The notes under the pieces were generated by a model. It did no database searches. It was given only the letters and a program-made list of their open reading frames with translations, and was not told where the DNA came from. The position numbers and the translations under genes are program-made. A DNA stretch of 64,000 nt from Scylla paramamosain (Eukaryota; Arthropoda; Malacostraca; Decapoda; Portunidae). This document shows, in pieces, positions 9,201 through 12,200 of this stretch (positions are counted from its first letter, which is position 1; the number at the start of each line of letters is the position of its first letter). Location: the NCBI RefSeq assembly GCF_035594125.1, contig NC_087157.1, positions 6,102,501 through 6,166,500 on the forward strand, read 5' to 3'.

Positions 9201-12200
9201 TACAGCAATAATGCTTCTCCTCTTTCGTAGCCTTGTCGTATCTGGCGCATCACCTGCACGCTCTTCTCCCAGGTGTGGGCGCCTCCGCCTTGGACGACTC
9301 CAGCTCCCCAAGTATGTCCCTGGAGGCCTCCCCCGACACCCTCGCCTCCCACAGCCACAGCACCTCCACGCCCTCGCCCCAACCTCATCCCACTCCCTCC
9401 CCGCAGCCCTCCGGTGAGCAGTGCCGCGCGCACACACACACACACACAAACACACACACACACACACACACACACACACACACACACACACACACACACG
9501 TATGCAGAGAGAGAGAGAGAGAGAGAGAGAGAGAGAGAGAGAGAGAGAGAGAGAGAGAGAGAGAGAGAGAGAGAGAGAGAGAGTCGTTACGTGGGGTTTC
9601 TCTTCGTCAGGGGTGCAAAGGAACCTTGCTGACCTGCAGAAGAGCCTGAGCGGGGAGTTCAACCGCCGCTTGCAAGAATGGGAGAAGTTGAAGGGCGGGA
9701 CAAGTCAAGGAGGTCCCGTCCCTGCACCCTTGCCAGGAGCTTCTGCTGGCGCAGTCCATCCCGAGGAGAACTTGCCTCACGAGTTTCGCAAGAAGCTTCA
9801 TGAGTGGGAGAAGATGAAGGAGCGGGAGCGGGAACGAGTATGTGACTTTTCAGGACCCTCCGCCCAGCCATCCCGGCACCGCTTCGTCTTACCCTCGTCC
9901 TCCTTGCTCTTTTAAAACCTATTCATTTACTAAATTTTACTGAAAAGAAAGCTGAATTTATATCAGTCCAGAGTAACTGTTACTAATTAACCCACCTTTC
10001 ATTTTTACTTATTGGCGTTTTGAGCGGTAGGAATGTGAATCTCTGTGAATAATTTTGTTCTGGTTGCTATATTTGTCATTAATAACACTGACTGCACCAC
10101 ACATGTGCATCTGTCACGTGACTGTCGCCACAGGGCAAACCCGATCTCCCGAGGGGGCAGGAAGATGTGAAGACCAAAGTGCACGGCGAGGACGACCTCC
10201 CCGCTGATTTTAGGAAGAAACTGACCGAATGGGAGATCCGCAAGGCCTTGGTGGGCAAAAGTCAGCAGAACGTGGAGGAGCTGCAGAAGAATCTCGGTGA
10301 GGAATTCAATCGCAAAATGGCTGAGTGGGAGAGGATCAAGGCCTCAGCCTCTCACGGCCACATCAAGACTGCGGCAAGTCACCTGCAAGTAAAACCTTCA
10401 GCCTCCGTCAGCTGCATACAGGCCAAGCCCATTGCTCCTCCGCCTCCGGTGCCACACAAATCTGGCAGCATATCCGGTCAGGGTCAGATAAAATGTTCAG
10501 CCTCCACGAGTCAGGTGTTGGCGAAGGCGTCCATGGCAGGCCCCGCTGCCAGCCCCAGACTGGACAGGAAGGGATCCGGCCACAAGATCAAGAAGAGCAA
10601 GTCCAGCAAGACTGAGAAAGGTCCTGTGGTAAGTTCAGAAGCTGTGATGGTCACGCCTTTCCAGTACCTATATCTTACCTTGATCCACCGCAGACCATAA
10701 TGTGATAAGGTAGTTGTAGTTTTGTTACTGCTTACTGGTACAGTGCATAAGAACTGTTTGACTGGCTGACTGACTTGCCAATTGACTGACTGACTGACTG
10801 ACTGACTAACTAAAATACTGTCTTAAAAATTATACTTGTACACACGTACTCAAGTAACCATCACTACATACAGTGAACAAACCACCTTTTGTTACACAGC
10901 AGTGTCATCACACTGAGGACGCGTGTTTATATCAATGCATTGTGAATTTTGCTCTAGGATTTTCTTGAGAACAATAACTGATCTTTGTTTTTTGGAAGCT
11001 GCAGAGCAAGGCAGAGAGCGGCAACAAGGGACGGGACAAATCAGATAAGGAGCTTCAGTGGTTAGAGAAGGAGTTGCTGAAGGTGGAGAGGGAAAAGCAG
11101 CGGCTAGAAAGGGAGAAGGAGAAGTTCCTCGAGAGGCAAGCAAGGTGAGGGGTGGCTTGGAGTAATGAAAGATTATTAGAAGTATTGATAGCCTAAGGCA
11201 CCGATAGTCTTTCTTCTCTTTCCTTTATAAATATATACATTTCTCAGTCACTCTCTCCTTTCCTCTCAGTACACACTCACCACACGTCTCCTTTAACTCA
11301 CCCAGTCTGTGCTTCCTTCTAAACCTTCCCTCACTTTTAACACCAGGCTGGAGAAGATGCGGCAGGCGATGGCTCGAGGCGGCCCGGCCAAGAAGAAAGA
11401 AATCTACATCAAGACCTCAACGGGGGAGTTCCGCTTCGAGGGCATCAGCCAGACGTTCACCAAGAGGCTGTACGAGTGGGAGGAGCGGCGCGGCATCCGA
11501 CCCGAGTCATCCACCATTGCGCTGCTCGATCCGAACTATAAAGCACCGGAGAAGGAAGTACAGGAGAAACCCAAAAGTCCAGAGCTCGTCCGTCTGGTTA
11601 GGTGAGAGAGAGAGAGAGAGAGAGAGAGAGAGAGAGAGAGAGAGAGAGAGAGAGAGAGAGAGAGAGAGAGAGAGAGATTTACTAAATTTTCAAAGTACTG
11701 TTTTTATAATGAGTCTGAAGGTCATGCCACTTTTTATTTGATTGTTATTTTATCTTTTTTTTATGTTCACCTTATTAAAACACATTCACATTAATGGATG
11801 CTGATTCTTTATGATTCAATTTGAAGGCGATTTCTTATTGCATCATCTACCACCACCACCAACAATAACAACAACACCAGCACAAACATCACCACCAACA
11901 CCTTTCTTCACCGTAGGTCGAAGTCCGAGTCTTCGATGGTGGCGGATCTGGTGGGCCCAACGCTACACTCTCGCGCCTCCAGCCTCTCCCTCGGCGAGAG
12001 AGACACGGATGAGCCAGTTCTGCAGGGTGGGTGGCGCTCCGTGGACAAAATCGAAAGGGGAAAATTTAGTATTATTTTATTATCTATTTATTTATTAGCT
12101 ATCAATTTATTATTATTAGTTTATAATCATAATTTATAATTATTATTTTATTTTATTTTATTATTTTTGTGGAGTTGAGGAACGAGATAAGAAAAAAGCA

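Follow-up and report, generated by a model that had tools for sequence, protein, structure and literature searches.

Helical docking motifs as such are already known, and two described systems lie close to the sequences reported here. The filament-binding motif VxxLxxxFE (SFM), with examples in Lifeact, ITPKA, SHROOM3 and USP54, has essential anchors at positions P1 and P8 and modulating residues at P4 and P9; Val is preferred at P1, Leu at P4 and Phe at P8, with close substitutes (PMC13364712). The tryptophan-acidic (W-acidic) motifs of the kinesin-1 cargoes SKIP and calsyntenin have a central Trp, typically with Asp/Glu flanks (PMC5450233), often carry Leu or Met at W-2 (PMC5450233, PMC6224480), and bind with a large electrostatic component from the acidic residues (PMC5450233). 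Here we describe a repeated motif, F-x3-[LM]-x-E-W-E (the EWE motif), in a giant protein encoded on a 64,000-nucleotide stretch of the crab Scylla paramamosain (NC_087157.1, 6,102,501 to 6,166,500, forward strand). This whole stretch is called the window, and coordinates are counted from its first nucleotide.

The motif copies make up a real, conserved and so far undescribed helical repeat, the terminal version of which is predicted to be folded. They belong to an uncharacterised family of protostome scaffold proteins that is unnamed in the libraries searched. We read them as duplicated amphipathic docking helices on a scaffold, which would fit one shared partner groove, with a probability of roughly 60%. 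Homology, conservation, predicted helices and absence from Pfam are supported by the data below, from which we infer docking, a shared partner, avidity and oligomers. The host gene, the relevant exons and the copies are located as follows.

6273..20843, + strand: host gene, 23 exons (6273-6415 to 18537-20843), 2364 amino acids plus stop
9611..9837, + strand: exon with EWE copies 1 and 2; AG..GT borders, in frame with its neighbours
9658..9684, + strand: EWE copy 1, FNRRLQEWE (W351), type A, from motif scan and copy comparison
9784..9810, + strand: EWE copy 2, FRKKLHEWE (W393), type B, from motif scan and copy comparison
10134..10628, + strand: exon with EWE copies 3 and 4; AG..GT borders, in frame with its neighbours
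10209..10235, + strand: EWE copy 3, FRKKLTEWE (W436), type B, from motif scan and copy comparison
10305..10331, + strand: EWE copy 4, FNRKMAEWE (W468), type A, from motif scan and copy comparison
11005..11144, + strand: exon of the predicted long helix ELQWLEKELLKVEREKQRLEREKEKFLERQ ahead of the fifth copy; AG..GT borders, putative coiled coil from sequence
11347..11601, + strand: exon of the C module, with predicted strands EIYIKT and EFRFEG, the helix with the fifth copy, and GIRPESSTIALL; from borders and AlphaFold2
11456..11482, + strand: EWE copy 5, FTKRLYEWE (W659), third type, from motif scan and C-exon alignment

The strict motif occurred five times in the joined protein, at W351, W393, W436, W468 and W659. 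A preliminary description of this DNA had centred five motifs on the same residues, and its numbers were recovered in the joined protein; the exons within its interval start at exactly 9611 and stop at exactly 11601. Scanning all six frames of the unspliced 64 kb window revealed no further strict motif. When the protein was shuffled 2000 times, strict matches averaged 0.0005 per protein, against 5 observed, and a looser EWE pattern had a mean of 0.014 and a maximum of 1 per shuffled protein. The motif consensus is L-[SP]-x-[DE]-F-x-[KR]-K-[LM]-x-E-W-E-[RK]-[ILM]-K, and a helical wheel calculated by hand places L(-4), F(0), L(4), W(7) and residue +10 on one face. The spliced frame is open throughout and ends in a stop codon, and all internal exon borders are AG/GT. 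The gene model is further supported because a protein of Homarus americanus (P0034, 2352 amino acids) aligns along most of its length, with 60% of the window residues identical.

Three protein searches gave 64 distinct relatives, numbered P0001-P0064. Among the crustaceans are the decapods Homarus and Halocaridina, the krill Meganyctiphanes, the amphipod Trinorchestia, the isopod Armadillidium and the barnacles Pollicipes and Amphibalanus; insects include Ladona, Ephemera, Timema, Schistocerca, Blattella, Laodelphax, Hypothenemus, Teleopsis and Drosophila rhopaloa. Chelicerates are represented by, among others, the horseshoe crabs Limulus and Tachypleus, the spiders Stegodyphus and Trichonephila and the mites Leptotrombidium and Dinothrombium, and the remaining relatives include the sea spider Nymphon, the nemertean Lineus and the oyster Saccostrea. 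None of their record names is informative on function: they read uncharacterised, hypothetical or unnamed, apart from a few labels assigned automatically (serine/arginine repetitive matrix protein 2; serine-rich adhesin). No vertebrate relative was among the matches, and the word-limited searches scored 7993 and 98 candidates, so absence is not shown. A profile of the five window copies found 190 copies in 64/64 relatives, 1 to 5 in each, many of these relatives being fragments.

Homarus P0034 keeps F, L/M, E and W in 5/5 copies (the third reads FRKKLTEWK), and the F/W spacing, on whose persistence in close orthologues the preliminary description had staked its pattern, was retained in the closest orthologues compared. 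Identity with Homarus reached 88-100% in blocks 326-350, 376-400, 426-450, 451-475 and 651-675, against 32% in the linker 501-525. The copy 4 block (451-475, 25 residues) was identical in the two species, and the 25-residue block 651-675, which contains GIRPESSTIALL, was 96% identical versus 60% overall. Across relatives, the frequencies of F, W, E before W and E after W were 0.97, 0.99, 0.88 and 0.76 in the 139 rows classed as upstream copies (window included), and 1.00, 1.00, 0.93 and 0.96 in the 56 rows classed as C copies, which include six misfiled upstream copies starting FA or FT (P0008, P0010, P0020, P0030, P0032, P0033). Such row counts come from the motif profile and are biased toward conserved copies; counts by alignment column are less biased, but the alignment has misplaced residues. 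By column, in 55 proteins, F and W were found in 32/41 and 28/36 (copy 1), 27/29 and 28/28 (copy 2), 23/37 and 32/44 (copy 3), 50/51 and 51/53 (copy 4), and 42/43 and 44/44 (fifth copy). Judged from these alignments, constraint falls on copies 4 and 5, most of all on the fifth.

In a 43-row alignment on the window C exon, ranging from decapods to oyster, F37, L41, W44 and E45 are invariant, and a module with this pattern probably has a specific partner. The tail GIxPExSTIALL was present in all arthropod rows seen except P0004 and P0059, where the prediction ends or skips the tail. The nemertean and oyster rows have no STIALL tail, so the strong constraint that had been proposed for GIRPESSTIALL after the last copy stands among arthropods and does not extend to these two lineages.

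Copy number differs between lineages. One recognised upstream copy plus the C copy was found in 8/8 rows from the named chelicerates and the sea spider, the nemertean has two upstream copies plus C and the oyster three plus C, and crustaceans and insects have up to five recognised copies. A profile of 18 upstream copies compared with the C-module profile gave an hhalign probability of 95.6 and an E of 1.3e-8, which marks the C-module helix as a homologue of the upstream copies. The window copies also resemble each other in pairs: outside the motif core columns, which were left out of the computation, copies 1 and 4 were identical at 12/22 residues and copies 2 and 3 likewise at 12/22, every other window pair being lower. 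The pairing of copy 1 with copy 4 recurred in 8/8 rows from crustaceans and the dragonfly Ladona, and that of copy 2 with copy 3 in 7/8 (the window, P0034, P0035, P0036, P0001, P0053, P0038 and P0039; P0035 was grouped with crustaceans by similarity). In the nine remaining arrays of four upstream copies, among them those of the mayfly, Timema and Blattella, the 1/4 pairing was found in 0/9 and the 2/3 pairing in 3/9, giving 8/17 and 10/17 for all 17 proteins with four recognised upstream copies. From these resemblances, the A-B-B-A order holds in the crustaceans and the dragonfly and does not extend to the mayfly or the other insect-type arrays. The A-B then B-A arrangement of two sub-types given in the preliminary description consequently needs narrowing: window copies 1/4 and 2/3 do pair best, the fifth copy is a third type, and the order is not general among insects. 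Its claim of a duplicated helical module agrees with the predicted helices, the window copy pairs and the profile homology.

Structures were predicted with AlphaFold2 for the amphipod orthologue P0053, using 55 rows, and for the window's own C exon. In P0053, copies 1-4 lie in predicted helices 327-358, 394-414, 451-468 and 483-497, respectively. Block means of the predicted local distance difference test (pLDDT) were 73-92 for copy 1, 87-88 for copy 2, 72-87 for copy 3 and 73-85 for copy 4, and the linkers around copies 1 and 2 were mostly below 50. A long helix (540-591, pLDDT blocks 91-98) comes directly ahead of the C module, which consists of strands 599-603 and 606-610 followed by helix 615-627 with the fifth copy. 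The window C exon gave the same arrangement (strand 18-23, strand 26-31, helix 35-48), with blocks of 75-83 there. In these models the fifth copy forms the helical part of a strand-strand-helix unit, which follows a putative coiled coil.

The preliminary description knew of no named domain with this pattern, and library searches bear it out. With the window protein scanned over residues 1-736 and the last exon, nothing exceeded the curated Pfam-A cut-off, the best model being DUF4515 at 16.8 bits versus 24.5; nor did anything in eight relatives (including the whole of Homarus P0034), 25 C modules or 47 motif copies. A single-sequence search of the PDB returned one chain only, at E 2.5. The motif profile matched seven chains (best E 0.0037), none of which extends beyond the core as a repeat. 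Foldseek and VIA-align gave no fold match for the C-module model. The C-module profile (A6), built from 25 sequences of 46 distinct segments, with two of the 46 not C modules and the oyster row left out, found one chain only in the PDB, a designed pentatricopeptide repeat. The C-module segment LYEWEExxGIxPExST resembles that repeat, LFEEMVEKGIKPDEFT; unlike a repeat array it is present here as a single copy, and the match amounts to 3.6 bits per repeat and E 0.12 for the chain. A 776-position profile (A4) matched 133 PDB chains up to E 10, with EnvC best at 2.2e-5. These EnvC-type matches were attributed to the downstream coiled coil and rejected, because the matches shown lie at profile positions of at least 367, and the coil before the fifth copy and the C module occupy 232-267 and 270-344. 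A guess that the fly relative is chascon was also dropped, since nothing connects the sequences. In the open-licence literature no description of an EWE motif or repeat was found, only off-topic titles (retrotransposon, sheep, goats).

Under the docking reading, the five motifs would be homologous short amphipathic alpha-helices spaced along a mostly disordered scaffold with coiled coils, each with a face of Leu, Phe, Leu/Met, Trp and one more aliphatic residue that would dock into the groove of a single shared partner. Several copies would provide avidity, and the coiled coils would form oligomers. The fifth copy, held in the small strand-strand-helix unit that in arthropods is followed by GIxPExSTIALL, would be the essential site, and the upstream copies would act as tunable extras whose number differs between lineages.

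Several observations weigh against such a model. Confidence in the structure predictions was low overall, with a mean pLDDT of 54 and a predicted template modelling score (pTM) of 0.38 for P0053, and values of 63 and 0.37 for the window C exon. Copies 3 and 4 of P0053 form nearly continuous helices and not separate units: a short helix (470-479) joins them, and pLDDT between them is 66-72. Other blocks of the protein, such as 826-850 and 2326-2350, are equally conserved with Homarus, and column counts show the weakest conservation at copies 1 and 3 (F in 32/41 and 23/37). Furthermore, upstream copies decay in flies, D. rhopaloa retaining one recognised but degenerate copy (EQWN) plus C. This decay speaks against a stringent role shared by the upstream copies.

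The homology between the upstream copies and the C-module helix, together with the position of the C module directly behind a long, confidently predicted helix, would also suit a role without an outside partner. The upstream helices might mimic the protein's own C-module helix and swap into the strand-strand-helix unit, or pack on the coiled coil, thereby controlling oligomerisation or autoinhibition. However, judged from its pTM of 0.38, the AlphaFold2 model offers no support for such a contact, though this amounts to no real test, and the chelicerate relatives carry one recognised upstream copy. We regard self-assembly of this kind as rather unlikely.

An improbable alternative is that the protein is a kinesin-1 cargo adaptor, in which the EWE copies, as variant W-acidic motifs, fit into the TPR groove of kinesin light chain and together recruit the motor to the scaffold. 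The Trp does lie between two Glu in 5/5 window copies, and several copies fall in a disordered region, so that the repeated Trp between acidic residues is like that of W-acidic motifs. The details diverge from the description of those motifs (PMC5450233): Leu or Met is found at W-3 here and not at W-2, where the window copies have Q, H, T, A or Y, the core has basic flanks, with K/R mostly at W-5, W-4 and W+4, and a helix is predicted.

That the copies have no docking role and reflect neutral expansion of a charged helical segment is very improbable. The charged neighbourhood, the variable copy number and the decaying fly copies would fit such a history; the copies are nevertheless better conserved than the linkers, and arthropods, nemertean and oyster all retain the F/W spacing, so conservation already largely contradicts neutrality. 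Scarcely credible is a degenerate chromo barrel or other known fold, with the C module as its hairpin and helix: the motif profile matches a nine-residue stretch of the KAT5 (Tip60) chromo domain, worth 14 bits (chain E 0.081), where the barrel helix DFNKRLDEW has the same F-x3-L-x-E-W spacing, but the whole C module is supported by neither profile nor fold comparison.

The host protein and its surroundings contain further features. A second Trp repeat, KPRGRWKAVVDD, at window positions 17771-18241 (residues 1492-1545), is strongly variable in number among decapod-type relatives: counted by regular expression, Homarus P0034 has 11 copies, the window 3, P0035 one and P0037 none. A basic W-x-K-V-K-x-[AIM]-[FI]-like motif occurs as AWGMVKNMI and HWTKVKKAF at residues 44-52 and 216-224 (exons 6273-6955 and 8351-8564); many relatives among the insects, chelicerates and crustaceans carry it two or three times, always counted upstream of the EWE copies, and it may be a further short-motif family. 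A run of 35 uninterrupted acidic residues (1365-1399 of the joined protein) lies in exon 16842-17226, which is poorly conserved with Homarus. When the N-terminal parts of relatives from krill, horseshoe crab, mite and planthopper were compared with the window, nothing credible emerged (one match, at E 9.4), and the first exons of the host gene are therefore probably upstream of it. Krill P0036, horseshoe crab P0044, nemertean P0062 and oyster P0063 have in common an N-terminal predicted coil starting GLDHLDNL, which was not found in the window and is a possible probe for a vertebrate homologue. Outside the host gene, an open reading frame for reverse transcriptase lies upstream at 1060-2424 on the + strand (Pfam RVT_1, E 9.7e-29), probably a non-long-terminal-repeat element, and a TAF2-like exon lies downstream on the opposite strand at 30861-31439 (Pfam TPR_TAF2_C, E 1e-63).

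If the copies are docking helices, their most likely partner would be actin filaments, a tentative choice made by analogy. Actin leads the candidates because F, W and the second E are spaced as P1, P8 and P9 of VxxLxxxFE. As in the SFM (PMC13364712), a short helix in a disordered region is predicted, most clearly for copies 1 and 2 of P0053, and Glu occupies P9 in 5/5 window copies, in 0.76 of the 139 upstream rows and in 0.96 of the 56 C rows. Other features count against actin. All five window copies carry Phe at P1 and Trp at P8, in place of the residues preferred in the SFM (PMC13364712), and have Lys or Arg at P4 with Leu/Met one residue later; validated wild-type SHROOM3 likewise has Lys at P4 (PMC13364712). 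On the four actin anchors (BLOSUM62) all five copies score 3, compared with 19 for the Lifeact 9-mer, and 4.8% of all 9-mers in the same protein reach a score of 3. Among eleven registers, the actin register gives the top score for 4/5 copies, and the fifth scores higher in two others. Agreement with the SFM in register and spacing is suggestive at most.

Once the partner is identified, these giant scaffolds would have a function as a family; should actin prove to be that partner, they would represent a natural multivalent filament-binding array. In its fullest form, the analogy would describe a protostome family with an unnamed folded module, made of a long coil, the strand-strand-helix unit and, in arthropods, GIxPExSTIALL, together with tandem detached copies of its helix, which would bind the sides of actin filaments as a register variant, FxxKLxEWE, of Lifeact and the SFM; as a whole we consider this doubtful. 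The array differs from described SFMs in its origin, being made of homologous tandem copies, whereas PMC13364712 argues for motifs that arose separately. If the analogy holds, the family would thus provide a homologous, duplicated actin-filament motif array, with its copy number tuned between lineages, unlike the separately arisen motifs of that work.
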